64,000 nt of DNA from Sclerotinia nivalis (Eukaryota > Ascomycota > Leotiomycetes > Helotiales > Sclerotiniaceae): the NCBI GenBank assembly GCA_029531795.1, contig JAPEIS010000008.1, positions 2,046,001 to 2,110,000 on the forward strand, read 5' to 3'. A program made the translations under genes and the position numbers. The notes below the pieces were generated by a model. That model saw nothing but the letters and a program-made list of their open reading frames with translations, was not told the DNA's origin and searched no databases. Shown here in pieces: positions 2 through 41,927 of this stretch (its first letter is position 1; each line of letters starts with the position of its first letter).

Positions 2-1003
2 GATGAGGACGACGAGAACTATGAAGAAACTTTTGATACGAAAATTAAGCGTGAGATATCTCACTGGCAATTTGCCCCGGGCCAAGATTTGGAGCCCGCT
101 TATTTGGCTACTCCAAATACCTCCAAGTTTTTCATGGTTCGTCAGCTTCGAAGCAACCCGAACAAGATTGACGTGAGAGAATATCCTCATATCGCTGGTT
201 TTGACTGGAATGATAAAGAGGCCGTCAAGGCTTTAAATAGAGGAAGAAATCAGATCATCCTTCGAACTAATGGTCCAAAGGCACCAGCTAGATTGGCTTG
301 GTCGCAAATTGAAAGGGATCTCTTGCGCCACCAAGTAATCAAGGGTCTCAAACATGGCGTGAGTACTCTTACTCTAGCCCAAGCTTATCCTGTGTTGACT
401 TACTCCAGATCTCCGCTGACTCTTTAATTACAGTACACGAAAAATGATATGCCATGGGACCAAGTTGCTCATAACATCAATGTAGATTTGGAAAAAGTCA
501 CTCAAAGACAAGGCTCCGCCCTTGCCAGACCAAGCAAATGGAATTCCAAGACAAAACAACAAGACTACCACACAAAGAGACACCTCAAAATGCAAAAAGA
601 CCGTACTGGTTCCGAACGCAATGCAACTGGCTGCATGAATCAGTCTAACAAGTTTGGCGACATTGATGCCCTGCTTCGAAACAGCGTAGAACAACCCAGC
701 AGACGTAAGACTTTAGACGAGATGCTTAAGATTATTCATGATGCCGATCATCTTCATCCACTTCCCAACGTTCGCCCCGCTCCTTCTGTTGCACAAGATG
801 CTAAAATGCAAATGGAGGATGGAGGAGGATCTTCGGGCGACGAACCTTCTTCCACGCAAAGTGATAGAATGCAGACAGATGGTGCCGATGAATATTCAAA
901 CGATGAGCCGCTCATGAAGCGTAGAAAATCGGATCGTGTTGCTAACAAGTCATTGGGCAATGAACCTCCCATGACGCGCAGAAAGTCAAAAAATGTCCAA
1001 TAA
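2..1003 (+). CDS. Core-domain family protein 1 (5' truncated by window edge)
   Basis: Partial gene that is open from the first bases of the window; its true start lies upstream. Exons are 2-358 and 434-1003 (phase-0 75-bp intron, GTGAGT...TTACAG). The visible protein begins acidic, then carries the core shared with four other genes here: a W-x8-D-L-x2-A lead, T-S-K-F-F-M-V-R, then the motif GFDWNDKEAVKALNRGR. This continues into a segment with Myb/SANT spacing (W-x3-E-x3-L before the intron, W-D-x-V-A after it), then a basic and acidic low-complexity tail ending in Arg/Lys/Ser-rich clusters that look like nuclear localisation signals. Function unknown; a nuclear, DNA- or chromatin-associated role is inference. 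Its closest relative here is the gene at 5433-7785. Confidence 0.75.
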
Positions 1004-2678
1004 GTCCAGGCATTCATTACGACACGGTACAAGACCTTCTCACTTCATCGTCACTTTTTTTCATGTTGGTGCATTTGCCGTTTTGTCGGGTTTTCACCCC
1101 AAACCATGTGTAATATTGGCACTCTGAATGTTTCCATCAGTCCCCACCAAGAGCACCCGTAGCGAAGACCTAGGTCTTCTATTTCTTTGGTCCAAATAAT
1201 TTTTTGTCGTTTCAGAAGGATTTTTATGTCGTTTGACCGTAGAAGCTTAATTTTAATACGATGAAAGGGTGGTTTAATGACAGCAAGGTGGAGATATGTA
1301 CAGAGACAGATGGTTGAGCGGTAGTCCAGAGGGATTGGATTCTTCATTGTTGTTGGATTGCATGTTTTCGTTTTCGTTTTATATCGCTTGCACATGTATG
1401 TTGGGGAGTTCGGGTGGTCGAGTCGTCATGATCACCGCGAGGGATCAATGCTGCGGTTTGCGTAGATAATGATGTGGTTGAGTTAGTTAGTTGGTTCTTA
1501 TGAAAGTTCATTCAATGGGCATCCCATTCCGAATCTCAGCCGAAACGTGACGTATTGCCACTTCTCTACCTAGCGATCGGAGTTTCAGCTATCCTGATGT
1601 TGAGGAAATCCATTGATAGGGCCGATCCTTTGATTCCAAACTAAGGATCTCAAATTCTCTTGAGTTTTGTTTCGATGGTAACAAGTGAAATAAATTGTGT
1701 TAGATCACATGATCTTCCCGCAACAGCTACAAGACAATTTGTCCAGCCAATCAAAATCACATTTCGGCAAAGATCGACAAATCATGGCGATCCCGGGGCA
1801 TTGATCACCTGACGAACCGTGAAGGGGGGGTATATAACCGAAAGGTCTAAAAGATCTAGACGCCGAGTAATTTTAAAAATTTCTTCTAAGGAGCCGGTGC
1901 TCCAACCAAAATGGATTAAGGAAAAGCCACACTCAGCCGCAACAAGTAAACATTCACGGGTCTATCCACTTTTCCTGATTGTATCTTTTTTGGAGCTATT
2001 GAGACTTGAGACGGATGTGGAAATTATGAAGGTTTTGATATGATAACAGACTATATCGGTGCTTTCAATGAGCTTCTGCATCCGAAGCTAGAAAAAGAAT
2101 AAGCGTTTGAACGCGGGATTCAAGTACCTACTAGCCTTGATTAGGCGCTGTCGGATTAGGTCCACCATATTCTTCTCCATGTGCATCAAGGGTCTTCTGA
2201 CAGGCAGGGAAAGAAGGAGAAATAAATTGAAGCAAAAACATAGGGAATTGCCCTGCAGACAGAGTGTCTTCGCAAGTATCATCGCCATCAAAGCAGCAGA
2301 TATGAGTAAAATCTACCATGCCACGCACAAATGATTTTGTGTGATGTGTGCGGAGTACACTGCTTTGCCTCGTGGCAGAAGATGCATGTCAGCACGGCTC
2401 TCCCCACAAACAATTTACCATGCTCTTCCTCAGGAACGTGCACAAAATGCAAGTAGGTAGTATCGGACTATCTATACTTGGCGCAAATGTTATTTGCTTT
2501 CTTCGTGTGAGAATTAGAGCTGAGCTAAGTTCTCCATTGTTATTTATACAAAGATGTAGAACATTTCCCCCGTAGACTTTTTCATCTCCATCTCTCTTTT
2601 TTAAGCGCTCACTCTTTTCAAACGCTCACTACTTTCTAATTCTCAACATTCATTCAAAAAATTTCTTAATTCTTCAAC
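1004..2678. other. Intergenic, no gene seen
   Basis: Only short ORFs with no recognisable composition. It does contain a CCAAT box (1747-1751) 80 bp before a TATATAA box (1831-1837) preceded by a G-run, which looks like a core promoter. No convincing gene starts just downstream of it. Confidence 0.5.
1747..1837 (+). promoter_or_regulatory. CCAAT/TATA pair without an obvious gene
   Basis: A CCAAT pentamer lies 80 bp upstream of TATATAA on the plus strand. Only ORFs of about 75 codons follow within 800 bp. It could drive a small or non-coding transcript, or be a distal leader promoter for the secreted-protein gene at 2679. Confidence 0.3.
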
Positions 2679-3617
2679 ATGAGAGTTTTAATCGTTCTTT
2701 CTGCCTTGACAGGCTTAAGTCAGGCTATTGCGGTCGTCCCTCGACAGCCTATCAGTCCATCAGAAGTCACCCTTACATCCACTTCCGTCAGCACAGTCAC
2801 GAACACCATCATCACTGCTTATCCAGTCATCACTACAGCAACAACTTGTAGCGTAGGAACCGCAATCCCGACCGAAGCCGTTTGTTCCGCAGGCGTTGTT
2901 TATTCCTTGACAGGAGGCAATTATTATTCGCAGGCATGCTCCGCATCACTATCTGGCGGCACTGTCATCCGTGCCTACGTAGAGCCTGTTGGAGTGGCGG
3001 CTAGGAGTATATGTGCATCCATCTGCAATGCCCTCAACAATCTCAAAACGGCTGCCAGTTCATGCAACGGAATAGTTTACACAACTATCGGTGCTCTTAA
3101 CCAATGCTTCTTGAAAAATGGACCTGTCACTGCTGTATCAGCTGGAACAAGCGTATTTGCTGTTCAACAATTTACAGATAATCCTTGTGTTGCCACGATC
3201 ACTGCTTCGACAACCGACACTTCATATCAGACAGTCACTTCTACATATGAAATCGTTTATACTTCAACAGTAACTCCATCAGCTGCCGCAACTACCAGTT
3301 CATCTGAAATTTCATCAGCAGCAACCACCAGTTCATCTGAAATCCCATCTGCAGCCGCCACAACTTCAGCTGCAACCACAACCTCTTCAGATATTCCATC
3401 CGCCGCTTCAAGTTCCTCTGTATCTTCTACTTCGACTTTGATTTCGAATTCAACATTGATTTCGAATTCGACTTCGACTTCGGCTTCAACTTCATCTTCG
3501 TCTTCGATTTTGACTTTGACTTCGACCAGTTCCGCAGCGGCTGCTTCGTCGAGCGCTGCCGATGATGACGCAGATGATGAATGTTATATTGATGAAGAGG
3601 AAGGTGATTCTCAATAA
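2679..3617 (+). CDS. Secreted Ser/Thr-rich protein with Cys-rich module
   Basis: Single-exon gene of 312 residues. Residues 1-17 form a signal peptide (basic N-terminus, hydrophobic core, small residues before the cut). Residues about 55-170 hold a module with regularly spaced cysteines resembling PAN/Apple-like modules of fungal extracellular proteins. Residues about 190-290 are a Ser/Thr/Ala tract containing repeats of the type TTSSSEI, expected to be heavily O-mannosylated. The last about 25 residues are strongly acidic (D/E) with one Cys. There is no terminal hydrophobic GPI signal, so the protein is probably secreted or loosely wall-bound. The start is the first ATG after a CT-rich leader. 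Binding partner unknown. Confidence 0.75.
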   Translation: MRVLIVLSALTGLSQAIAVVPRQPISPSEVTLTSTSVSTVTNTIITAYPVITTATTCSVGTAIPTEAVCSAGVVYSLTGGNYYSQACSASLSGGTVIRAYVEPVGVAARSICASICNALNNLKTAASSCNGIVYTTIGALNQCFLKNGPVTAVSAGTSVFAVQQFTDNPCVATITASTTDTSYQTVTSTYEIVYTSTVTPSAAATTSSSEISSAATTSSSEIPSAAATTSAATTTSSDIPSAASSSSVSSTSTLISNSTLISNSTSTSASTSSSSSILTLTSTSSAAAASSSAADDDADDECYIDEEEGDSQ

Positions 3618-5432
3618 ATGTAAATGGGGATTGAAATTTGGGGTTTAGATGGATGGATAGATTAACGGCTGGATGAGAGAATATACAGATGAATGTTCAC
3701 GGAAGGAACGAGGTAGAATTCGAGCAATCAATCAGAAGCATATTATGTTCTTGTATATATTTCACAGATATAAATACTCATTCCACATTTACCGTCCATT
3801 CATATCCAATCAACAAGTTGCCTCTCTCCCGATTCCAAGGGTATTAACCTGATGATAAATACTTAGTACTCTCAATACCCACCCTGTATTCGCAGCGCTA
3901 TGATTAATATGTTTGAGGCGCGTGTACACTGTATAGTTACTACTTATAATCTTCGCGAAGAACTAATCAGTGTATAGCTATCTACTTCCCATGGCCATCT
4001 AATAAAATCACTCATCATTTCCACTATCAAACTCATCATTCTAACCAATCCAAGTTTGCGAATGGAGAAATAAGCCTTAATACTCTGGTAAACTGGGTAA
4101 TACAGATTTCATACGCAGATATCTTGGTACATACCTATGTACCAAGAGATCCAAATTCAAACAATACCCTTTAATACACTATTCTTCCCCTCACAACGGA
4201 ATATAACCTTGACCACGCAAATATATTATCAAGTAAACAAACACCCCCCGTCCCCTCCAATAAATAAAGAAGTATAATACCAACCACCCAATTCTTCCAC
4301 CCAGAAGAATCTGCATCATTTCAGTAAATAAAAAGTAGTTCTTCAATAATTATAAAATCTCTAAATCTCACCGATAGCTCACAGGGAGCCAGATATTTAA
4401 AATACTATTATAATCATAGTATTTCTCTCGGCATGACAAGCTGCGCGTCATTCTGGTGGAGATTTATGGAGTGGGAGGAACTGGGTTTTTATAGCTGGAG
4501 TTATTTTTGAAGGATTTTGTTTTGAATGAGCTCGAGGGAGGAAAGTTTTAACTTTGGTCTGATGTTACACAAATTGCGGGGTAATTAGTGTGTGTAAGCG
4601 GGGAAAAGGGGGAGCTATGTATGGTATTATGTGGTTAGATTTATGGGGGAAAAAATCATCACACGAATACAGATGCAGCGCGGTGTGTTATATCACAGCA
4701 TCAGTATGATCCGAAATTTTTATCTTTTTTTCATTCATTTTCCTATCATTGCCTCAACCACACGCCATCACAAAATCGGCCACAACCCTAAACCACATCT
4801 AACCCAAATCAATCAAAGAAACCCTAAAAAAATCCCCAAACCCAACCCTCATCATCAACATCCTCATAATCATCATCATCATCGCAAATGAACCCCATAA
4901 TCCCTCAGCATCATAAGAATTCTTATCCTGTCCTATCGCATCAAATGAAACATTAAAACAATAAGAGCTGCATGTACGCCACAGAAATTCATGTTCTTCC
5001 GCCATATCCATACCACTATTTATCGTACCGCATCGCCGTGACGTGAAAAGGAAAAGAGAAGGGGAAATGTGTGCTGTGTGTAAACACCGATTACCGATAT
5101 GTTGGGGTATCATCATTTTTCATGAGAAGAGCCTCCTGTAGGCGGAAATAATTGGGGGAGTCGTTTTTGTATTTTGATGGAAGTTTGTGCTGAAATTTTC
5201 CTGAAATTGTGCTGTGGGAACGTAGTACTCGTACTTGTGGAATGTTGAGTGGAGATTTTGTGTGTCGATCCATTTATTGCCTGACAGGGCCGGAAGGACA
5301 TGCGCAAAAAATCGAAGAGGGTTAAATGTACCAGTAGAAATCAGACCAGATAGAGTAGAAAAGAGGAAAACTAGCAGCCCAGATGTCTAGATGCTAGACG
5401 TAGTAGAAGGCTGGTCTGAAGCCGGAAACGAT
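3618..5432. other. Intergenic, no gene seen
   Basis: 1.8 kb AT-rich spacer between the 3' ends of two convergent genes. It holds low-complexity CAT/ATC repeats around 4845-4890 that give a spurious His/Pro-rich ORF. No RNA gene or mobile element recognised. Confidence 0.5.
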
Positions 5433-7785
5433 CTAATTCCTGCCTGACTTGGCGTCAAACTGCTTTGCATTACTCTTACCGAACTTCACACTGAAGGCAG
5501 CTTTCAGAGTAGATGGTCCAGCGGTAGGTAGAGGAGATGGTTCATCATTGTCATCGTCATAGTGCTTCTTGAGCATACAAGGAGGTGGGCTGGCTGAAAA
5601 ACGGCGAGTAAGAGTCCTAGGTTTCTTTGTTGGTCGATTGTCCTCTTCATCTTGCTCGTCATCAATCATTTCTGAGACACTGCGACGAGAACCTCGGATT
5701 ATGCCACGACCGCCTTTTCCGCCAAGTCCTGTTGCTTTGTTAATCAACTTGAGAATATCAGGGTATTTTAGGGCCTGAGTTTCGGTCGCGGAGCCACTAC
5801 GATTGTAGCCTGTACGGCCACTGCGAGTGGTCTTGAGAGCTGTTGTAAATCAATAGTTAGCTATCATACCTCAGATGGGAAGTGAATTCACTATCGCGGT
5901 TCGGACTTCGGAGAGCCGAAGCACGAACCATTTGATATCACAGAAACAACGCCAAAGAAGTTTACTTACTCCTATCCTTTTTGCCATCCTTAGTCTCTCT
6001 TTCGATTCCTGGTGCCAACTTTGAGCCTTTTGGCTGAAAAACTCCCTCGAACCTTTCCTTGAGACGAGCTGCAATCTCATCCCAGTTCATCGTACGTCTA
6101 TCGAAACCAGCTTTAATAGCATCGCGTACCTCCTCTTCAAGACAAATTTTCTCCATCTGTGTCCACGGAATGCGTGTTTCGGCAATATTACCATGAGTTC
6201 GTTTACGGTTTTGAGCCCTAGCCTTGTTAAGCTTTCTGATATGTGCCGGGTCATCCCAATTGAACCCAGAAATCTGCGCATACTGGCGGAGGTCAATCTC
6301 AAGGGGATCATCGACGTTTTGACGGGTCAGATAGAATTTGCTAGGATCGGGGTTTCCGAGTTCTGCATTCTCGATATCGGTTCCTTCAACGAAGCGCCAC
6401 TTGACATTGGCACGTCCTGGTGTGTTCTTCTTTACTTCGGGGAGCTTCTTGAAGTAAGCACCTTCAAGCTCTTCCTCATCATCATTGCTATCGTAGACCT
6501 CAACATCGGAATCTTCTTCACTGCAACATGGTGTGGTGGGTGCCGAATTGTGATCGCGGTAGAAGTCCAACCGACCACTAAAACGGGAGGCATTATTGCT
6601 AGTGTTGTGGACTACCGCAGGTGCTGGATGTCGAAGATCATGATATTCTTTAGCATAATGAGGACCCCATTGTGGTGCGTCATGGCCAGTGCTGTGTGCT
6701 CCTCCTCTCAACCAATTTACGAAGTCGAGCGTAAATTGGACATATCCGGGACCTCGGCTCTCGTTCCTATCAAGATGATTAATGAGCTCGTCAACCTCAG
6801 CTTTATTATGTATTTCGCTATCATTCTTGATCGCATCTTCTCTGGTGAGCATTACCGGAGGACTGGTAAATACTCGTCTCGAGATTCGAAAAAAGTCAGG
6901 TACGGCTTTCACTCGGCGGATACCTTCATCCATAGGTCGCAAGTTCCACTCCCGGGCTACTCGTTCAAAGTATTGGTCATGAGTTAAAGTTGGTTCTCTC
7001 AATAACTCATGAAGAGTATTGAACCAATGTGGCAATTGCTCACGTTCACTTTCATCCGCCAATGTTTCAAGCTCTTTGGTGAGATCTGTAATTCGACGAG
7101 CAACGTCGTGCAAATTTGGGAAGAATCTGAGAGTCTCTGCGAGACCGGGGATAGTATTAAGATCTTGCAGTATAGTGCGAAACTCGATAAGTATAGCAAG
7201 CCGGGAAATCTCAAGTGGTTCTGTCAGATTCTTGACTCCCTCTAGTAGTGCGCCTTGTGGGGCTTTTCGAATTTCAGTACCGCTAGCGTCGACAGCAATT
7301 GGAAGATCATCTCCCCATGGCATTTCCATACCACGGCAGTGAAAGCAGAATCGACCGATGAGGTGTTTATGGTCATAAGCGCAAGCGGTAGTTAGCTTCT
7401 CTTTAGTAGTCGGCTGTACATGATGTGGAGAGCGCGGGTCACTGAATGATGCATCGGTAGGCATTTCGAACTCGTCCCTGGGTTCATGAGGTGGAGGGGT
7501 TGTATAAGAGCTCGTGCGAGGCATAGTAGCGCTATTTAATTTACTGCCATTGTCATTTCTTGGGGCGGAACCAGACTTGCGCTTGAATTGTTGAGCGGAA
7601 GCTGCGGATCTTTTTTCCGTATCCTTAACTTTTGCTTTCTGGTGATTAACCGCAGGCATTTGCTCTTTTTCTTGGGATACTGCGGCAGCGCTGAGGACAG
7701 CCAACCCTGAAAAAAGAGGTGACTTCGGACGGACAGACATGTCCGTTCCTCTGTTTCGTTCCATTTCTTGTCTTTTCTCCTTCAT
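5433..7785 (-). CDS. Core-domain family protein 2 (long form)
   Basis: Exons 5970-7785 and 5433-5839 on the minus strand (130-bp intron, GTAAGT...CAACAG, phase 1) give 740 residues. It is the longest member of the five-gene family. Residues 1-130 are basic and disordered. A short C-x2-C motif (FCFHC) sits near residue 150. Residues about 180-390 are helical with many W/H/R and unrecognised. An acidic stretch near 430 precedes the core (about residues 468-525: G-T-D-I, D-P-S-K-F-Y-L-T-R, GFNWDDPAHIRKLNKAR). Next comes a Myb/SANT-like segment (PWTQMEKICLEEEV, then NWDEIAARL), then a basic tail with Gly/Arg repeats and K-K-P-R. Other in-frame ATGs lie within the first 16 codons, so the start is not certain. 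The arrangement core plus Myb-like segment matches gene 1. Nuclear function is inference only. Confidence 0.8.
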
Positions 7786-9600
7786 GTATACTCGTCTGTG
7801 TTCGGTTTCGGATGTTTCGCTAAATGTTCAACTGAATTAGTATCAATACTTGAGATGTCCAACGAAGTAATTCAGGTGAATGCTTGGTTTTTGGAACAAA
7901 TGTCAGAAACAATCGAGGCCTCTAAGAGACTATCCACTGATGTAAAATAGAGAGTCTTTGAGTTAGAAGTGTGTGTGAAGTGATGTGAAGGATATGCACA
8001 AACGGGGTTATGTGTTGGTACGAGATAGAGTGAAGGTAGAAATGGGTGGAAGGATGAAGTTGTGTGAAGAGAAATTCGTTGTTGAAGGCGGACAGCAAAC
8101 TTATGAAGTGAAGCTATGTAACATAGGAGAGGGATCGATGTGTACAAGCATACGAAGAAACGATAAATTGCCAGTCTGACGGGGGGATAAAAGCAAGAAG
8201 TGCAGTGAACGGCGAGACCCTACATGTACGAGAGAAGAATAATCTTGCTAAGGATAATTCGGGGTATTGCGATTCCTACGCGCAAGCGCGAGATTGAAAA
8301 ATGTTGAAGAAAGGATTATCCTGTGAGAACAGAAATGCTCTTATAAGAGTTGCTCCGAATCACAAGATCCTAAAATAGTGATGGGTGAAGCATGAAGGAT
8401 AAAGGGAAATAATACATTCCGAAGGGCTGGAAAGAAACCATTAACTTACTGAAGGTAAATGTATTTTGGAAACTTCGAGGATATTCCCAAAAGCTATCAA
8501 AAAACGCGTCGACAGCGTTACCGCCAATGAAAGAAGTGATAATCCAATATCAAGAAAGGATCAGAAAGAAAGATTATTTTGAAGAAAAGGAGTCAAGAAA
8601 AGGTTGTGAGGGAATGAAATGTTGAAGTTGAAGTGAAGTGAAGTGATTTTTTTTGAAAGGTTTGTGTTGGAGAAGAAAAGATCCTGAGAAATGAATTTGT
8701 TTTTGATACTTTTGTATCAATGTTGACCTACCTCTCAAAAGATCCTCGCTTCGCTAAAATAAGGCATCAGCTTTTACCCCTAATAGTACGGATGGATGAT
8801 AAAGGGTGAATACAAAGCTGATAAAAGTTTTTTTCTTATGGAAACTGGTAAGTGAATATTTTCGGTTGGTTGAGATGATCAGATATTATCCACCTGGATA
8901 AATTCTACTTTGGTAGGCCCCACTCCTTTGCTTCTACCAACTGCCCTTGTACTTTGAAGGTAACCAGTTAAAAGCAGTAGCAAACTATTCAAATTGTTAT
9001 GTATCGCCAACACCAGTCTTAAATCACAATGAGATAACACCCTCAATATATTAAGGGAATGTAAGTCATCTGATACTGGGATACTGCGTACATAACCTTG
9101 AATTTTGCCGGTAGAGACATAGAGGAGGGGAAATAGGATCGAGCATGGCTATCGTTGGGTAATGGTCCTCGATTCTTAGGTGTATTCATATCTAGTGACA
9201 TTTATCTAGGGTCATAATGCGAGCTGGCATTCATCTTTTATCTCACCATTATGTATTCCACTCATCTTTTTTGGCGAACATCCCCTATATGAGAGCACAA
9301 TAGGACGTTTCAAAACGATTATCCATCAACAGGCACAGGGAAGAAAGAATACCATTGACTCCATATTTAAAAGCAAAGCAAAGAAAACAGAGTACAAAAA
9401 GACTTGATTTCTATTTAATAACTCGGTCCTCAAAATGGACAGATACTGTGATACCAGACTAGCCGAGAAGATCATGCAACCCCATTATCATCAATCTTTA
9501 TGCCAATATCATACATTTTCTCCTCCATTACTACCATCATGATTGAATACCCTTTATACCAGCTTCCGCCGGTCAGACAGCCGCAACATGCTCTAAATTT
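7786..9600. other. Intergenic, no gene seen
   Basis: 1.8 kb AT-rich spacer upstream of the long family member. It has purine-rich (GA) tracts around 8000-8700 that read as low-complexity antisense ORFs. No conserved product was seen. Confidence 0.5.
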
Positions 9601-10425
9601 CTAAAACTCAAGGATTCGTCTATTTGGTCGTAGATCGTCATCGTCCTCTTCCTCACCCGGTGGCCAGGATTCAGCAGTGGTGTCGAATGGTGAGCCTCTG
9701 CCATCAACGGTGACTCTGTAGGTAATTACAATCAGCAATCCAAAACTCCCAATGCTTAGCGTGTGCAAATCTTACCGAGACTTTCCACTAGTCTGTGGAT
9801 TAGACTCCAAAGTATTGATTTCCCACTGTCGACGAGCCTTATTGAGTCTACCAACATGCTCCTTGTTATTCCAGTCAAACTCATCGATGTGCAACTCGAT
9901 TCGCTTCTTTTCAATCTTGGTGGGATCACGGATATCATATCGGCGAACCACGAACTTGGAATTATCGGGCTGACCAACCACTGCAGGAGTCATATCAGTA
10001 TCGCCGGTGATAGCCCAAGCAACATTCGCATCCCTAAATGATGTAGCGCTGAGTCTAGCTTGCTCGAAGCCCGGACTGGTAGGTGGAGACTTAGTCATCA
10101 CTCTAGACCGCTCAGGAGAGTTGGAAGCACGAGGAGTGATTTGAATAGGGCCCGACTTGGCAGTCTTATCTGTAAGGTTGACCCAATCATCTTCCTCATC
10201 TTGGACATCAACTTCAGCCTTCTTGAAATCCCCAAATTTGTAGGCGGTATCGCGACGGTGCTTGGTGTGATCTCTGAAGAAGAGACCTGAGGGGACGATG
10301 GCATCTGCGATGTTGCAGAGGAAGTTTTCACGACGGAGAGCGGATTTTCCTTGGTTCCCTGGTTCACCGAATGGTGGGAGAGGAGCTTTGGTGGGTGGAA
10401 GGTTTTTGTTGTTTCTTTCCGACAT
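9601..10425 (-). CDS. Core-domain family protein 3 (compact form)
   Basis: Exons 9776-10425 and 9601-9715 (60-bp intron, GTAAGA...CTACAG, phase 2) give 254 residues; the frame closes exactly at the stop. The N-terminal half is basic and Pro/Ser-rich. The shared core is near residues 138-205: G-D-T-D-M-T-P-A-V-V-G-Q-P, N-S-K-F-V-V-R-R, D-P-T-K-I, then EFDWNNKEHVGRLNKARRQ. It lacks the Myb-like segment of copies 1 and 2. The short C-terminal exon is acidic (EEEDDDD) and ends soon after. This compact copy defines the minimal unit of the family, which makes the core likely to be a self-standing fold. Function unknown. Confidence 0.75.
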
Positions 10426-12903
10426 GCTGGTCTAAAGTAAGGTTCTGGTGTGGTTAGTGAATGCCATTGGCTGATTGCAATGTTTGAAAAGGTAGTATAT
10501 GGATGAGTAGGATTATTAGGTGATTTTCACATGGACATCGAGGGATGGTAGAATACTGGTGCCAAACTAATGAGCCTTTTCAGTCTGTTGACTACTACTC
10601 TAGCTCGTGGGTAAAGGACTAAAATTAGAAATATAAAAAGAAAAATATTGATGCTTACAGGTTGAGTTCTTGAAATGAAATCTGTCTTGATCTCAAATGT
10701 CTTGATATACAAGATGTTGCGACTTGTTCAAAGATGCAAAGAGTTGTACAAATCTGTTTGTAATATTCTATGATAGTTTGTTCTTGAAAGTCTTTGCAAA
10801 AGTAATCTTTATCAAGTAAATGATTTAGAAGTTGTTAAATATAAGATAGGGATTGTAAGATTGCAAATTGGACTATTTATATACATCCAAATAACTACGG
10901 TTGACAAGTCTAAGGCTGGTACTGGTCGGCAGGTCGATGGTGCATTCGAAGTCCATTATTCACATGTGTTTAGGACATTAATTCAGCGAACATCTTGATG
11001 TAGACAGAAACCGTACTAAGGAGATGAGTCAAGGAATAAATTCAATAGATTTCTTGAGGTGGTTCGAGTTTTAAATATAATTAGGGTTAATAGATCCCGA
11101 GGAGATTATCATAATTAGTTATTGTGCTTGGAATAGCTTCAGATGAGACTAATTATATTCGATACCTGAGAGGATTGATTAGTTTATGGAATATTTTTAG
11201 TGAATACCATACAAAAGTTATGAAAATACATAATTTATCTTGTAGATTGATAAGATTGATAATTTGCTATATATTACATTCAAAATAGGTGGGTCATTTA
11301 GAAACACTATGTACATTTTTGTTATCCAACTCTTAACCAAAAGCATATTAAAGTAAGAATCACATATGGAAATATATATATATGAAAGCATACTTAGTTT
11401 TGATCAACACAGCAGCTGTTGTTGATTCCTTACATTCACCAAATAAGTAGAAGCTATTCCGTTGAAGTCCAAACATTATACAAGAATTTACAAATGAGCC
11501 AGCAGATGAAAACAAGGAAAATCACTTATGAGCAAAACAGGCAAAGCTTTGGTTCCTTGAAGAAATCCTATCCTCAGAAGAGCTAGCTGATAGGTAGGTT
11601 TCTCTTTCTAAACTACCCTTGGATTTAAGCCTGGGATATGGGATCCATTACACTCACAAGTGTTAGTGAGTGAGTGTACTCAAAAAGATGCCTACGCAGG
11701 GCAGGAAAAAGACATCAAATATTACTTTTTCACTGGTACAAAACTTGATTTGTTCACAACGATAGAAATGCAGTTTTAAAGAGACACAGAAGAAAGACAA
11801 TACGATACAGAAAAGACGTTGCAATTGATCCAAGCTATCACCCACTCCACACTGAAATGAAAATCAACATGAGCAATGCATTATGGCCATACAAATAGCA
11901 AAGTGCTTGAAAACTCTTCTATTACCCGACTTCTCAGAACTCTCCAGCATTTTATACTCTCACCCGCGATCTCCTTACTTCAGTAACGGCCAGCATTGAT
12001 CCTTCGCTTCGTGTCCTACTCTGTTTTATTCCTCTTATTCAGATATTCTGCATAGTTTGGAGGTAGTTAGGACGGACATTGAGTTAAGGTTCGAAATCAA
12101 TTATAATGTAAAATTTACTATTTATTGGCATCGACATCGAATGATTCAGGAAGAGGGTGGACATTATAATATACCTAGTTACCGATGACTAAGTTTGAAC
12201 ATTTTCCAGATGTGAGATAGAACGTTTGGAATCTGGAATCTTACTAATTAATGCATGATGGAGCTAAAAATTTCATCAAAGATCCTTATTAGAGGTAGGT
12301 ATTTGGAGAGGAAATAAACTAGTATCTCCTTCTCCGCTTGAAAAGATCTGTCTTTAAAGAAATGATCAGGATGCTCAACACACTTTACACTTTTTGGAAA
12401 TAATTAGCTTCAAATTATAAGAAAAGATATTGCTAACAAAGCAATTCCATTTTTTACATCCATTTGTAAGCAAGTTTTTAGCGTGGGTGTGATTAAAATA
12501 GACTAAAACTCGCTTCCACTAGGTTCAAGCGACCATTCAAACGCCCTCCTTGAACCGTATTAGGAAAGGTCAGCAAGAGATAACTAGTTTATTGCCTCTC
12601 TAAATACCTTTATTGCGTTGAGCACGATTACAGACCGTAATTCCTGTTTTTCTAGCACTCTACTTACTGTAAGGTACGTAAAAGAGCAGAGAGTGCCAAG
12701 TGGTGCCAAGTTCTTCATTTATCGATAGCCCATATTCACAAACCTTAAACTTAAATGCCGAAGTTTCTCAAAGGCGTAAGTAGCATCATAGAATTGTCCA
12801 AATAAATACACATTCCCATGTGAGGGCGTTTCAATTTTCAATCCGTCCATTCTTGCTATTCAAGTCTCTTCATCAATACGCGGCCTACCCGAAAACCGTG
12901 AAG
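10426..12903. other. Intergenic, no gene seen
   Basis: 2.5 kb very AT-rich stretch, the longest clean gap in the window. ORFs do not exceed about 60 codons and carry no recognisable composition. No RNA gene or repeat unit was identified by eye. Confidence 0.5.
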
Positions 12904-14304
12904 ATGTTGTTCCTTTTAGCTGCCTTAGCCGCCACAGTAGCAGCTCAAGGCCTCAACCAAACCTGTCCAGTACCATTATCACAACAACGCACCAATCTCA
13001 CCACAATTGGACTATGTTCTGCGGATTTGGATGTCATCGGTCCAGAATTACAAGCCGTTCATGAGTATGTGCGTGCTCCTACTGGATTGGCGGTAGATTT
13101 GGACGCCAATCTTTTCTTCACCTATGCACGCAATATGGAACCACAGAACCGGACTCTCACAAAGGCCACAGGGTTTAATAGTGAGGCTCCTTGGCCATCT
13201 GCTGAATGGCAAAACTGTGCTGCTGGTCAAAATGCTTCGGAATGCTTTGTTAATGTTCAAAATGTGGTTTTGGATGCCGAGGGTGTGTTTTGGGTTATTG
13301 ATAGTGGAGTTCCCAATGGAGCGTATGTTGATATTCCTGTTTTTGTTTCTTCTATGAGGAGTCTTATAGTAGGGCTTTCTGATTCAAGAATGTCAGCTGA
13401 CTGATTCAAAGTGCCCACCCAACTCCATACGGAGCTAAGGTCATCTCATTCAACTACACTACTGCAGAGGTAATCCGCACCTACATTTACCCACCTGAGC
13501 TCTACAATGTTGAGCTCTACAATGTCAAGCTCCAATTGAACGACATCAAGATCAACAATACTCTTGGATATGCATTCATCACCGAAGACTCAGCATACGG
13601 ATCCATCTCAACAATCAATTTGGAAACCGGAGCCACCGTCAGACATATCTTCAACAGCAGTTTCACCACCCCCGATCCCAACTTCATCTCCATGTACAAT
13701 GGAGACGTCATCAGAAACTGGTCCGGTACTAAATCTTCGGTTCTCAACTCGGGAACTAACGGCATTGCATTAACCGGAGGCAATATTTACTGGGGTGTCA
13801 AGGCTTCTAATCACTGGTACTATGCTCCTCAGGAAGCATTTATCTCCAACTTGACCGATGCAGAAATCGAAGCTGTGATTCAAAACCCAGGAAACTTTCC
13901 CTCCGAGCAAGCTGGTTTTACTGCAGATGACCGTGGCCGAGTATATATTTGTGCTTCTGCTGTACGTACTCCTTTACTCTACTCTTTATTTCTCAGATCA
14001 CTAACAACAAAAATAACATAATGCAATCCTATACGCCGATACCCAACAATCCGAAGTCACCGATGAGATTAACGGCGTCCCAGCCGGTGGTTCCGGAATG
14101 GTACCAGCTGCAAACTATAACCTCAAGACATTTGTTCGTGGTGGTCAGCTTCAGGCTGCAGACACCATGGCTATCTTGGATGGATGGTTATACTTTACCA
14201 CCAATCAACAAGGACTTGCTCCTGGTAGACAGTACAAGAACATTGATAAGCGAAGAGGTCCTTTCAGAAGCTACCGTGTTTGGATTGGTAGAGGTCCTGC
14301 TTAG
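12904..14304 (+). CDS. Major royal jelly protein/yellow-like secreted protein (broken acceptor)
   Basis: Exons 12904-13322, 13412-13961 and about 14020-14304 together give about 417 residues. A signal peptide (MLFLLAALAATVAAQ) is followed by a beta-propeller of the MRJP/yellow family: LAVDLDANLFFTYARN near residue 60, WVIDSGV near 135, PYGAKVISFNY after intron 1, and a DRGRVYICASA strand before intron 2. Fungal members are extracellular proteins, mostly of unknown ligand. Intron 1 is normal (GTATGT, CTGAC branch, AAAG). Intron 2 has GTACGT and a CTAAC branch site, but no AG at the expected acceptor; the text there reads AACAT directly before the family-like NAILYADTQQ. The nearest upstream AG (CTCAG) puts the last exon in another, also open, frame. 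Either a 2-base loss or base error damaged the site, or the gene is becoming a pseudogene. Confidence 0.7.
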
Positions 14305-14864
14305 AAACATAGAGTGTAGTATTGTGAAAGAGGTAGGTCGAGATACGTACGTCCCGATTGCACGCTGTGAGGGGGAATGGGAATAAGAACTGAATAGATT
14401 ATATTGTAGAGATTTCAAATAATATAACTAATAGAATAAACAATGGATTTGGATTGTATATAATAAGTATACAAAAAGATTAATGAAAAACGATTGATTA
14501 TTCAAAAAGAGAAAGGCAAAGCCCTTTCCTTATATCTAATTACGAAGGATCATGTGATCTATTGACCATGAACTAACTACGTATTTGGCTTCAATAACCC
14601 AACTTTCTCACAGTATATATTCACCAAGTCTAATTATGATGACTACTTGCTCAGTTACAAATAATGAAACAGAATGATTATCATGTTCATGAATTGCCAA
14701 GTTGAAAAGATTGTTCCAATGTGAACGCCACTTCTCCAAAAATGCTATGAAGGCCCTTTTTATCTCAATTACCGAAGTCAAAAATCTCGCCAGTTGAGCA
14801 TTGTTTGCATACACGAATACTGTTGCCTTCTACTATAGCTCCGTCCTATAGCTGCTCAGGCACG
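14305..14864. other. Intergenic between convergent genes
   Basis: 560 bp AT-rich 3' flanks of two convergent genes; nothing else seen. Confidence 0.5.
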
Positions 14865-16000
14865 CTAAAGCAAGAAACCCTCCCCGTAGCCCTCATTGTT
14901 GATAAACCTCTCCAGAGCAGGACTTAGTACATCAGACGCCTCAGTAGAATTTGATCCTTCCGCTTCTGGTGTGGAAGCACCTGATGGAGCAGTCGCTGAT
15001 GGCGAATCAGTTATTGGAGAACCAATAAATGGTGAATCAGTGTTTGGAGAACCGTTATTTGATATTGGATTGAGATTTTGCAAGGTCTCGGAGAGAAACT
15101 CCGTGTCACCATTAGTGTGCCAGGTAGCATTCATTCCTTGCGCAATTTGACGCCGTGAAAAGCCGTGAGGTAGTTGAGGGCGGCGACCTCGATAAACATG
15201 GGGCCCCCTGCTTTGAGTAGTATTGAATTCATTTCCAGATTCGTCGGGATTGTCGGAAGGTGCTTCATCTTCGCTGTTGAAAGCAACATCATCTGACTCC
15301 GGTTCTCCCCTGCTAGCTTCTTCTTCCATATTTCCGCTGTTAGTTTCTCCAACTGATCTTCTGGCTGGTTCTTGGATCGATTCCTGCATTGGTTCATCAA
15401 CTGCTTCGTCAACCGCGTCACCCATGACTTCTCCATTGGCGTTCCCTTCATTGCTTGCTTCTTCGGCTGCCTCTTCAACTGCCTCTCTAGCCTCCCTAGC
15501 TTCAGTCTCCTCGACAAACTCCCTTAACCTTGGAAACCACTCTTTTCTCTCCGCTTTAGTAACAAACCTCCAGCATCTCTCACCCTTCGAAATGTCAAAA
15601 CCGGTTTTCAATGTAACAGCAGCAATTCGAAACAAGTTCAGTTTATCAATATCATCCTGATTAAACCAATCGTGTCTGCGGTGGTTTCGGTACTGATGCA
15701 TAATGATTTGCTTAGATATTCCGGAGTCCGAGTGTTTGAAGTGGAGGTAAATATACTTGTGAGGCTCAGGTTTACCTAAGACGGCGGCACTAATATCTTG
15801 CCTCTGTTTAATTGTCAAAGAGGTGGGATGAGGGATCACATTATAGGAGGCAACGTTAACGACGCTATCAACGTTTTGGAGAGGCTAGTTATCGTAGTTA
15901 GTATGTAAATCATGATTGAAGAGTACTAGGTATGTGTTACATGCTAGCTAATTCGGGTACCAAAGTACAGAGGGCTACTTACAATCATAGATTCATCCAT
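14865..16000 (-). CDS. Core-domain family protein 4 (acidic/Ser-Pro form)
   Basis: Exon 1 is only six codons (15983-16000, MDESMI), followed by a 98-bp intron (GTAAGT...ACTAG, phase 0) and exon 2 at 14865-15884; total 345 residues. The core lies at about residues 30-95: Q-D-I-S-A-A-V-L-G-K-P, H-K-Y-I-Y-L-H-F, then the divergent HDWFNQDDIDKLNLFR. A W-R-F-V-T-K-A-E-R-K-E-W-F helix follows and may be a degenerate Myb-like helix. Next come a Glu/Ala-rich helical stretch (about 120-200), a basic patch (R-G-R-R-P), and a tail with short repeats of the type GSPxTDSP. The L-N-L-F-R ending and the tiny first exon link it to copy 5. Function unknown. Confidence 0.75.
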
Positions 16001-17107
16001 GTTGACTTTGTAGAGATCGATAATTTCTGAGAAGATAGTATGGGGGGCTGTGTCTGATGAAGGCGCTTGAAGCGTTTGACGGTAGATTAGCGTAGCAAAT
16101 AGCAACTGGAGAGCTGGTTGATTGTATTAACTCCCGCAATCCACTGATGAATTTGTCAGTAGGTTAGTTGCGTAGATTGTATGTGAGCGAGGCGAACAAG
16201 CTAAATAATGCAATTTAAAATAAGTACTTGTACATCCAAGAGATATCTACTATTTAAAAGATTGTTGTTGAGAAAGAAGTATAAAGACTATGGTCAGAAT
16301 AACAGGGAAGAGCAACGGACAAACCATACACGCGACTTTGCAAAAAGTCACGCGACTTCGCGAACCAATTATGGCATGAGAAGTCCTTCAATTCACTCAA
16401 ATTCAGTTATGAGTTTTCTAGCAAACATAGAAATCTCCATGAAGTGGAATCTTCTATAATATCAAGCCTCTGCACAACATGACACTGTCAAGTCACCATC
16501 TTCATCAGTATACACCAGGTCAGACGGCCGGCTTGGGTAATTGATTGTATTATGATAAATACTTATCTTCTATCCTGCTAAGAAGTACCTTAAGCTAATA
16601 TGCTTTCGCGATTGTCCTCTAGTCCATTCAACTCCTTATACCCGGAGAAAAATCATCGCCAAATAGACAAAAGCAGAACTGGAAACCCAAACCGTGTCAT
16701 CGAAAAGGAGGAGGTCAGGTTAGCCCCATCTCCATTCTCCGCTTCTAACTGCCTTCATGGTATCATCACTGACATCCTTTGATTTAAGAAAAGCTTCTTC
16801 TGTCGGGGTGCTTATGATTACCTCCAAACAGCCAACTACCCTTAGCTTTGAACTAATCATCTCAGAGTGTCCAATAGTCCGGACTACAAGATTTGATATA
16901 AGTTTTCAATATTTGAAAAGGATTGAACATCTGAATATAATTCATGATTCATAATGATTTCAATATTTCAGCAAAACTCATCAATTCGAAAATTATCAAC
17001 GTTTGAATTCTTTTCATTATCTCGAATGATTAAATATTTTAGTTAGATTCAACAATTGAGAGGTCTCCCATTGTTGGACTGCAGTCCGGGCTATTGGATA
17101 CCGTGAA
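16001..17107. other. Intergenic, upstream of family copy 4
   Basis: 1.1 kb AT-rich spacer. It contains two exact copies of CACGCGACTT (see separate entry) and no convincing coding region. Confidence 0.5.
16329..16365. promoter_or_regulatory. Repeated ACGCGA motifs, MBF-like sites
   Basis: CACGCGACTT occurs at 16329-16338 and again at 16348-16357, followed by CGCGAA, about 330-360 bp upstream of the start of family copy 4. ACGCGA/CGCGAA resembles MCB/SCB elements bound by fungal MBF/SBF G1-S regulators. The exact duplication with 19-bp spacing suggests binding sites, but this is inference. Confidence 0.35.
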
Positions 17108-18770
17108 TCATGTTACCATGTTCAAATATTCTTCAATCGTCATATCAGTGTCGTCGAAAGCTTCTGCCAATTCTAGTGCAGACATGAAGTTTAGGGCATT
17201 TTGAGCAGTCACGCCTCCGCCACCGGCTGCAGTGCTAAAAGTCTGCTGATATTGATTTGAATTCATGGATGAAGTCATTTGAGTAGGAACTCCTCCGCGA
17301 CCAGTGCCGGCAACAGCACTCAGGTTATATTGGCTGGATGCTTGCTGTGTAATATGAGAGAATGTGCTCTGATTGTAGTTTTGTTGGCCTTGTTGTTGGG
17401 GGACTGCAAAGCCTTGGTTCTGCATTTGGTCGTAACCTTGTTCAACCTGTTGATGCATTCCATAACCTTGATTTTGAGGCTAGGAAAGTCCCTGTTGAGC
17501 AGGTTGCTAATGCATTCCGTTTTCTTGGGGTTGGAGCGGGACGTAGCCTTGCGCTAAAAGATATTGAGGTACGTATCCATAATTTTGTGATGGATTATAT
17601 CCTTGCTGAACATATTGTTGCTGAGTCATCCCATATCCTTGAGCCTGTGAAGGGAAATATTTCTGGGTTGGGTTGAACTGAGGCGAAGATCCGTAACTCT
17701 TTTGAAATTGTTGGTGTGGTACCCCGAATCCTTGGCCTTGGAACTGGTTCATTCCCGGTTGCTGATTATGCTGAGAAAATGCAACATGGCTGTCACCTTG
17801 GCTAAGTTGAGGAGCCATATATCCTGGGCCAGGCTCAGGCCAACCAGCATGCGGGTCACGCCATAAACCCTGCATTCCTTGTTCTTGATTTAGTGCAGAT
17901 GGTGGTGGTGGTGCTGATGAAGGTTGATGTTGCATACCAGTAATCCCGTATGCTGGGAGAGGAGGCTGAAATTGTGGTGCAGTAGGTCGGAACTGGAAGA
18001 CTTGTGCAGCCGACTGAACAGGATTCGGAGTCAGAGCCTGACTTCCCCTTTGAGTGGAGATGCCTGGACCCTTCTGCAGTTTGTCATCCGAAGGTCCTTC
18101 GGTAACAGTCGCCTTCCGCTTCTTTGACTTTCGCTCGTCAGTTCCTTCTCCGACCATCAGTTTCATCTGCCGTGGCTTGAGAATGGCACCATCTTCGCCA
18201 AAAGCAGTGACACCACAAGCCTCCGTAATGGCTGCCTGACGGAAGAGATTCAGATTGTTGATCTGCGCCTGATCATCCCAATCAAAACCTCTCAACTTGG
18301 AATATGTACGAACAATAACGTGCTCTGGGTCAAGATAGTCGCAGCTGATAAAGAAGAACTTGCGCATATCGCGGACGCCTTTAACTGCAGGTGTAATATC
18401 TGCATGCTGTGAAGGATTACTGCTGTGTCTGATATCGAAAAAGAACTCTGTAAGGAGATCCGGATTCATATTCTCGATTAGGCAGAAGTCTTTGGATGAG
18501 CCCCGGAAAATCCCAAAGAAAGCTTTGCGGCACCCGTTTTCGAACATGCTAACGTAGCTGACATTATCAACTTGCTCAATATGGATATTCTTATCCCTTG
18601 CGTCTCTTGCCTTGAAGCTGTTCTGGAGGATGCGTAATGCAGCGGGAAATTCTGGATGATCTTGATTGAATGGCTATTTTAGAGTACATTAGCCAAGAAA
18701 CCCCACGGAGGTTGCTTTGCTTAGCTTTGAAGAGCTAGAAATTACTTACGAAAAAGGATTCTGTCGACAT
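17108..18770 (-). CDS. Core-domain family protein 5 (Gln-rich form)
   Basis: Exon 1 has seven codons (18750-18770, MSTESFF), then a 76-bp intron (GTAAGT...AATAG, phase 0), then a long exon from 18673. The core is near residues 95-155: H-A-D-I-T-P-A-V-K-G, R-K-F-F-F-I-S, D-P-E-H-V-I, then LRGFDWDDQAQINNLNLFR. A basic K-S-K-K-R-K follows, and then a long Gln/Pro/Tyr/Gly-rich prion-like tail with repeated Q-G-Y-G/V-P units. The frame meets two in-frame TAG codons (17507-17509 and 17480-17482) and then stays open to 17108 with the same Gln-rich style. Treating 17480-17572 as a 93-bp phase-0 intron (GTACCT...CCTAG) removes both stops and gives 497 residues; without splicing the protein ends at 395. 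The Q-rich tail may drive condensate formation (inference). Confidence 0.75.
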
Positions 18771-40289: not shown

Positions 40290-41927
40290 TCACTCTTTAC
40301 AGATGAAGTCATCGTTATCAACATCACCATCCTCCTCCTCCTGTTTCATACAAAAATCAAACCCATCACACCCATCATCCCCAAAAAGCATTTCCTTTGC
40401 ATCCGCATCCACATCCCCATCAAAAATCTTTCTCCTCTTTCCGCACGGCACTCCAGTCCCTAAACCCCTATCCAACCCAAAAACACATCTCAATCCATGA
40501 TCAAAAACGTCCGAAGTAGCACAACTACCACGTCGCCGTTTAGTAGAATCTACGTCTTTCACACTAACATCTAAATCCCTCCCGTCCTCGCTACTTTGAT
40601 CATCAGAAGATTTCGTTTCTCCTTGCAAACCCCAGAATTCGTCCAGAAGTTCCTCGTCGATTTCGGAAGGATAGATATCCATATCCACATCCACATCAGA
40701 TGGAGGATCCGAATCCGAAGTCGAATCTCCTTCATCGTCATAATCATCACCATCATCTGACGATGGATTTAAACGACGATATTTTTCATATGGCCGTTCA
40801 TTATCATCTGGATCACTTTCAGGTCCATCATCAGGTCCTGATCCCGAGTCCGATCCCTCATCCGAACTCGAATCTTTTCCTCCATCACCATCTGTATCCG
40901 ATCCCTCATCAAGATCCGGCTCCCCATTAACCGCATGTCTAAGATCCCCTGCATCCTCTGAATTCAGATGACTTTCAATATTATCCAGTAACGAGGTTTG
41001 GTAATCGTTTGGCCCTGCGTTAGGATTTCTCCTCGTATTGTCTTTTACTAGAGCCAATACAGCGAATCGATTTGTAAGTGAAGAGCATTGGGAAGCGCCT
41101 GGATTAGATGCATTTGCGGAGGTTTGGGGAGGATATTCGGAGGTTGGATTGGATGGTCCGGTAGCTGTCATCGTTGTTGAATCTGTAGGCAAGTTGCTAG
41201 GAGATACTGATGCCGAATCGTTCGATTCAGCACTCATACCCATGGTCGGACTCGTCGTCATGCTCTCGTTCGTGCAAATCCTCTGTTCAGTTCCATTCGT
41301 CGCATCTCCAGCCATCTCCACCTCCTCCTCACCAACCCCATCACCAACCCAAGAAACCTCACCCACATCCCCCTCCACCCCCTCCTGAAACCCCTCCTTG
41401 CCCTGCTCCTTCTTTCGCTCCACCTCCTGCGCAAACCCCACCCCCATATCCCGCATCACAATTTCCGTCCCCCCAATTATCGTAATCGTACTCAAAGCAC
41501 GCGCAGAATTCCTCTCCACCCCCTCAAACCAATCAGCCCAATCCAGATATTCATCCAACGAAGCATACCACCAACCCGTATTAATACTCACCGAACAGCA
41601 AGTATACCCCTCAAACACACTCGTCAGAGGAACTCCCGTCCAAAAACGACCTGTCAGTGAAAATGCCTGGATTGTGATTTCGGGGGTGTGGAGTATGGGG
41701 GTTTGGGATGGTGATGGGAATATTGTGGGTGTCGATGACGGGATGGATGTCGATGATGGGAATATTGTGGGGGTCGATGACGGGATCGGTGTAATCGATG
41801 GAATTGTAGGTACCGTACTAAAAGCAGGAACAGCAGTAGTAGTAAGATTTGCTAAATTATGTACTGGTGCTGTTAGAGAAGATATTGCCGTGATTGGGGT
41901 AACCAAACTGATTAAATCGAAATTCAT
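40290..41927 (-). CDS. Hypothetical acidic protein with Thr/Pro-rich N-terminus
   Basis: Single exon of 545 residues; not recognised. Residues 1-80 are Thr/Ser/Pro-rich with a duplicated SSTPTIFPS unit. Residues about 85-160 look folded and carry C-C and aromatic clusters (GRFWTGVPLTSVFEGYTCC, WWYASLDEYLDWADWF). Residues about 170-350 are acidic and Gly-rich. About 350-470 is an Asp/Ser stretch (runs of D-S-D and S-S-D-D) with CK2-like sites, and the C-terminus has the basic patches KRRRGS and GKRRKI, probably nuclear localisation signals. Sequence on the opposite strand gives Ser/His-rich shadows. A 3' intron cannot be excluded. An intrinsically disordered nuclear protein is the best guess. 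Confidence 0.6.
   Translation of the reverse strand: MNFDLISLVTPITAISSLTAPVHNLANLTTTAVPAFSTVPTIPSITPIPSSTPTIFPSSTSIPSSTPTIFPSPSQTPILHTPEITIQAFSLTGRFWTGVPLTSVFEGYTCCSVSINTGWWYASLDEYLDWADWFEGVERNSARALSTITIIGGTEIVMRDMGVGFAQEVERKKEQGKEGFQEGVEGDVGEVSWVGDGVGEEEVEMAGDATNGTEQRICTNESMTTSPTMGMSAESNDSASVSPSNLPTDSTTMTATGPSNPTSEYPPQTSANASNPGASQCSSLTNRFAVLALVKDNTRRNPNAGPNDYQTSLLDNIESHLNSEDAGDLRHAVNGEPDLDEGSDTDGDGGKDSSSDEGSDSGSGPDDGPESDPDDNERPYEKYRRLNPSSDDGDDYDDEGDSTSDSDPPSDVDVDMDIYPSEIDEELLDEFWGLQGETKSSDDQSSEDGRDLDVSVKDVDSTKRRRGSCATSDVFDHGLRCVFGLDRGLGTGVPCGKRRKIFDGDVDADAKEMLFGDDGCDGFDFCMKQEEEDGDVDNDDFICKE

Follow-up and report, generated by a model that had tools for sequence, protein, structure and literature searches.

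A clustered gene family of Sclerotinia nivalis with an undescribed core and a probably Myb/SANT-like segment

Five genes in a 64,000-nucleotide stretch of the Sclerotinia nivalis genome (the window; C8:2046001-2110000 of an assembly of 50.3 Mb in 31 contigs) share a segment that a preliminary description of this DNA could not assign to any characterised family. This raises the question of what the shared segment is, how far the family extends and what its members might do.

A clustered array built on an undescribed core

The five cores in the window are homologous. This agrees with the preliminary description, which had proposed five dispersed paralogues. Leave-one-out profiles recovered each of the five with E values of 3e-9 to 3e-22; overall, eight of eight members were found in this way (4.2e-9 to 3.8e-20), and g46 was recovered at 5.5e-5 by a profile built without it, while true non-members scored E ≥0.23. 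The coordinates are given in Table 1. The core is about 72 residues long and is predicted to form a short strand, a β-hairpin and a 19-residue helix that bears the L-N-x2-R motif (mean pLDDT of the model 84, with 91–95 per ten-residue block across residues 11–60). It was rightly described as unrecognised: the core matched no Pfam family, members had no Pfam match above cut-off, and the same holds for NCBIfam with the 12 members scanned. Against PDB sequences the best match of the core profile was ribosomal L33 (E 0.38), and none of its seven matches was a Myb protein. The model of the core alone found no convincing fold match among the best 50 of 144 Foldseek matches and 8 VIA rows.

Table 1. 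Features of the family in the window and on the remainder of C8. Positions are those of the window unless prefixed by C8.
Feature	Position	Strand	Remarks
g1, 3' part	2–1003	+	intron 359–433; model from sequence
Core of g1	80–286	+	leave-one-out profile
Myb/SANT-like segment of g1	287–520	+	W-S-x2-E ... W-x2-V-A; alignments; outer limits approximate
g2 = OCU04_007798 (P0001), 784 aa	5433–7785	-	first 44 residues 5' of 7785
Myb/SANT-like segment of g2	6031–6168	-	IPWTQMEK...NWDEIAARL...; limits approximate
Core of g2	6184–6387	-	leave-one-out profile; structure models
N-terminal C-x2-C...MPWG module of g2	6952–7368	-	common to g1 and g2
g3, 254 aa	9601–10425	-	intron 9775–9716
Core of g3	9793–10005	-	leave-one-out profile
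g4, 345 aa, acidic	14865–16000	-	donor 15982, acceptor 15885; model from sequence
Core of g4	15585–15806	-	leave-one-out profile; reduced W/E segment after core
g5, Q/P-rich	17108–18770	-	first-exon donor 18749; model from sequence
Core of g5	18200–18409	-	leave-one-out profile
g23 = OCU04_007770	C8:1931384-1932988		open frame, not whole gene
g13 = OCU04_007771	C8:1938578-1940086		open frame, not whole gene
g14	C8:2029067-2029798		open frame, not whole gene
g46	C8:2031000-2031821		open frame, not whole gene

The family extends beyond the window. A family profile, scanned over a contiguous 182 kb of C8 (positions 1928001-2110000), identified at least nine core-bearing frames within 133 kb (C8:1931384-2064673), that is, within 0.26% of the genome. 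All nine members scored between 2.3e-22 and 3.9e-64, with the second exon of g1 found besides at 1.5e-5, and the first segment beyond the nine genes had an E value of 2.8. This profile was built with all nine members, so the leave-one-out runs are the independent tests. Nine single-sequence searches of the whole 50-Mb genome, one per member, revealed no core outside C8, and their sole match elsewhere, on C14 (E 1.13), did not cover the core. Since g46 was found by its own query alone and was thus invisible to the queries of other members, the count of nine is a minimum, and further members may lie on other contigs.

The gene models differ in detail. The open frame of g1 starts about 0.66 kb upstream of the window at C8:2045339, and g2 is 99% identical to S. 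nivalis OCU04_007798 across the searched part. Both g4 and g5 were modelled with tiny first exons of six and seven codons, respectively. The Q-rich tail of g5 contains two in-frame TAG codons (17509-17507 and 17482-17480, nine codons apart), so that g5 is either truncated, spliced differently through an unrecognised intron, or wrong at this place because of an assembly error. The earlier view that each core is embedded in a different protein was right only in part, as g1 and g2 have an N-terminal C-x2-C...MPWG module in common (E 2e-10), which, with the g1 frame as query, matched nothing else in the genome. The long charged or Q/Ser/Pro-rich arms around the core are probably disordered.

Most of the other frames scanned in the window appear ordinary. 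Eight of ten had Pfam matches at E≤0.01, all of common types such as UGGT, coatomer alpha, HemD, an LCAT-type acyltransferase, the condensin subunit Cnd1, a protein kinase and an MFS carrier; a WD40 protein scored just under the Pfam cut-off. Between g46 and g1 the array contains a degenerate LINE-like retrotransposon remnant (C8:2034527-2041505) with an RVT_1 match of E 3.7e-19 (L046:5856-6392), the adjacent frames being assessed by eye only. A Ser/Thr-rich frame of 312 residues between g1 and g2 (2679–3617) carries what looks by eye like a signal peptide and has no Pfam match at E≤0.01. At 40290–41927 lies an acidic low-complexity open frame of 545 residues that resembles no recognised kind; the other strand has a frame of 180 residues there.

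A second segment resembling Myb/SANT domains

Myb-like segments had been suspected in some members, and this suspicion was supported. In five of the nine copies (g1, g2, g13, g23 and g46) a second, probably Myb-like segment follows the core; in g1 it is interrupted by the intron at 359–433. According to the alignment, the segment is reduced to a W/E remnant in g4, and g3, g5 and g14 keep the core with no recognisable Myb-like segment. We aligned 13 hand-picked rows (five of g13, four of g2, two of g23, g1 and g46). The glutamate and the second tryptophan are invariant in all 13 and the first tryptophan is present in 11, being replaced by tyrosine in the two g23 rows. The spacing W-x3-E ... W-x2-[IV]-A of Myb/SANT domains (PF13921, PF00249) is common to the segments of g1, g2, g13 and g46, whereas g23 departs from it by this tyrosine and by W-x2-V-T.

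A profile of these 13 rows listed six matches in the PDB, five of which were distinct Myb/SANT proteins with solved structures, namely ZZZ3 (2yum), Reb1 (5eyb), DNAJC2 (2m2e), B-Myb (1a5j) and an ADA2-like protein (1x41), with E values of 0.16–2 and none significant alone. Both W-x3-E and W-x2-[IV]-A were in register in the three alignments displayed. The reversed profile, used as a control, returned no Myb protein among 29 matches; its best match (RBBP4, E 0.0099) scored better than every Myb match, and 25 of the 29 rows were two repeated protein groups, RBBP4/7-type and zer-1. ZZZ3 was also the top of two matches of the whole-family profile (E 0.23), and a profile of g2 only placed two designed TIM barrels (E 0.00072 and 0.0022) above the Myb protein 1h8a (E 0.46).

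Myb_DNA-bind_6 was the most frequent Pfam match; at E≤1 it was found in 13 of the 51 members scanned, and it also matched 15 of 23 g13 orthologues (a set that overlaps the 51; best E 0.0017). DUF7438 and BACK matched seven and six of the 51, respectively, with best E values of about 0.009. Where bits were displayed, Myb_DNA-bind_6 scored 14.3 in P0030 and 14.8 in the L013 frame, under the curated cut-off of 22.9, and formal Myb/SANT membership therefore fails. The family differs from established Myb/SANT proteins in scores below every curated cut-off, in copies where no such segment was recognised (g3, g5 and g14) and in the unnamed core that precedes the segment and whose profile matched no Myb/SANT protein. 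Predicted helices in the g2 segment are a point of likeness, but the model has two clear helices and no third, with low confidence past about residue 130. Among the matches listed for a two-part model of core and segment (best 50 of 80 with Foldseek, 10 rows with VIA) there was neither a convincing match to the core fold nor a Myb chain, an absence that rules nothing out.

Overall, the sequence evidence suggests that the second segment is probably Myb-like and that the members are probably Myb/SANT-like proteins whose core had not been described before; a Myb/SANT fold of the segment has moderate support.

A true Myb gene lies 13 kb from g13 (C8:1952847-1956584, L048:4847-8584; frame of 1246 residues, Myb_DNA-bind_6 E 2.1e-13). 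Descent of the family from this gene is unsupported: the family profile did not match it at E≤5, and hhalign gave a probability of 6.7% over 20 columns (E 0.0055).

Distribution and age of the family

Searches with g2, g23 and g13 returned 24, 4 and 24 rows, 44 of these 52 being named. The named matches belong to Sclerotinia, Stromatinia, Botrytis/Botryotinia (we take Botryotinia to be Botrytis), Monilinia and Ciborinia, all of them Sclerotiniaceae according to a taxonomy look-up of one species per genus. The 24 rows for g13 come from a deep search with a twelve-row alignment, in which just the 7992 candidates with most words in common were scored; all 24, at E≤1, are apparently g13 orthologues. 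On the searches with g2, g13 and g23, the family has so far been seen in Sclerotiniaceae only. The public entries are hypothetical, uncharacterised or Myb-like and the rows state no function; 'Myb-like domain-containing protein' is the UniRef name on 13 of 24 rows of the g13-orthologue search. Entries such as OCU04_007798, OCU04_007771, OCU04_007770, sscle_12g088260 and SBOR_1774 appear to be the family genes themselves or likely orthologues. They do not differ in kind from the family described here, and their names are automatic or 'hypothetical'. Among the papers listed, judged by titles and abstract openings, we found none on these genes; many MYB factors have been reported in another fungus, Ascochyta rabiei, according to a title (PMC5470089).

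The two best-sampled orthologue sets are those of g2, present in all five genera, and of g13, present in four without Ciborinia. Beyond the copy number, the preliminary description had called for an analysis of synteny. Both genes are located on contigs of identical length, taken as the same contig, in 11 of 16 comparable species: S. nivalis, S. trifoliorum, S. sclerotiorum, S. borealis, Stromatinia cepivora, B. fragariae, B. byssoidea, B. aclada, M. laxa, M. vaccinii-corymbosi and M. fructigena. They are on different contigs of <100 kb, and hence uninformative, in B. hyacinthi, B. convoluta, B. narcissicola and B. paeoniae. For B. porri, g13 (EAF01_001538) is apart from a shortened g2-like gene, EAF01_008606, and a further g2 exists in a second, fragmented assembly. 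EAF01_008606 (P0024) lacks part of the core, has a locus tag far from that of the g13 orthologue and is possibly a second, decaying g2 copy. As the rows for B. cinerea stem from several assemblies, this species was excluded from the contig comparison. Locus tags of g2 and g13, compared for nine of the 11 species, are 5–13 apart in seven; the distance is 27 for S. nivalis and 23 for Stromatinia. If the tags are in order, the pair represents an old neighbourhood that has more intervening genes in S. nivalis and Stromatinia.

The preliminary description had spoken of a local expansion; a recent one is not supported by our data. Third codon positions of the window copies are only 33% identical, which indicates an old array and leaves a recent tandem burst unsupported. 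Moreover, in a tree of 23 chosen rows g2 of five genera forms a clade (support 93/96, not starred) to which g1 and g3 do not belong, so the split of g2 from g1 and g3 is probably older than these genera. The same tree groups g4 with g5 (support 96/92); its long branches make the deeper order unsafe.

Possible roles of the array

We consider it rather probable that the members are nuclear and engage DNA or chromatin by means of the Myb/SANT-like segment. The segment would contact DNA or histone tails, the core would stabilise it or mediate contact among family members, and the diverged arms would recruit differing partners. Nuclear location, DNA or chromatin binding and a core that acts as an interface are, each for itself, what we infer to be most likely. 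Basic tails had been put forward in favour of a nuclear location, for which they are modest evidence: six of nine copies contain K[KR]x[KR] motifs, at numbers somewhat above the shuffle means (g1, 1 against 0.80; g2, 2 against 1.27; g5, 1 against 0.12; g13, 2 against 0.77; g23, 5 against 1.99; g14, 1 against 0.36), but a sequence scan found none in g3, g4 and g46, and as proof of nuclear location the tails do not suffice. No signal peptide is apparent by eye among the readable N-termini of family members.

The same segment could be a SANT-type module for binding proteins or histones, which would make the members subunits of chromatin complexes rather than sequence-specific DNA binders. We regard this as a tentative alternative. 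ZZZ3, ADA2-like and DNAJC2 proteins are chromatin- or ribosome-associated and not classical DNA binders, and their presence among the segment-profile matches as well as the acidic nature of g4 (net charge -28) would agree with it; however, the DNA binders Reb1 and B-Myb stand in the same match list, and sequence cannot tell these cases apart. Somewhat less probable is a chance convergence of the W/E spacing in a family with another role, such as that of a cytoplasmic scaffold. The lack of an individually significant Myb match, the two-helix model and the unrelated matches of similar or better score point in this direction, whereas a concentration of five different Myb/SANT proteins in six matches, compared with 0/29 and 0/7 for the reversed and core profiles, and the lead of Myb_DNA-bind_6 by count among Pfam families argue against it.

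The copies with an absent or reduced segment, g3, g4, g5 and g14, might also be decaying relics of a formerly active Myb-like family. The two in-frame stops of g5 and the long branches in the tree are consistent with decay, but in all four copies the frame around the core is open over 219-388 residues, and g3, g4 and g5 show the codon-position bias that is usual under selection. We judge such decay unlikely, although this bias records past selection and is compatible with recent decay. Id proteins and plant microProteins pair with partners and thereby switch them off or re-target them. By analogy, the locus could be a self-contained array in which copies pair through the core. The five copies with a Myb-like segment would bind DNA or chromatin, and those with the core alone (g3, g5, g14 and perhaps g4) would silence or re-target them, with at least part of the array kept adjacent on one contig through the history of the Sclerotiniaceae. 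We consider this quite improbable.

Sclerotiniaceae include major crop pathogens, and regulators specific to this family are poorly known. Given that the public names are 'hypothetical' or 'Myb-like' at best, the genes deserve a domain model even if they turn out to be just another Myb-like family. In conclusion, a clustered array built on a domain that Pfam does not match makes a good candidate for lineage-specific regulation, and since some copies have the Myb-like segment and others lack it, the design can be tested.
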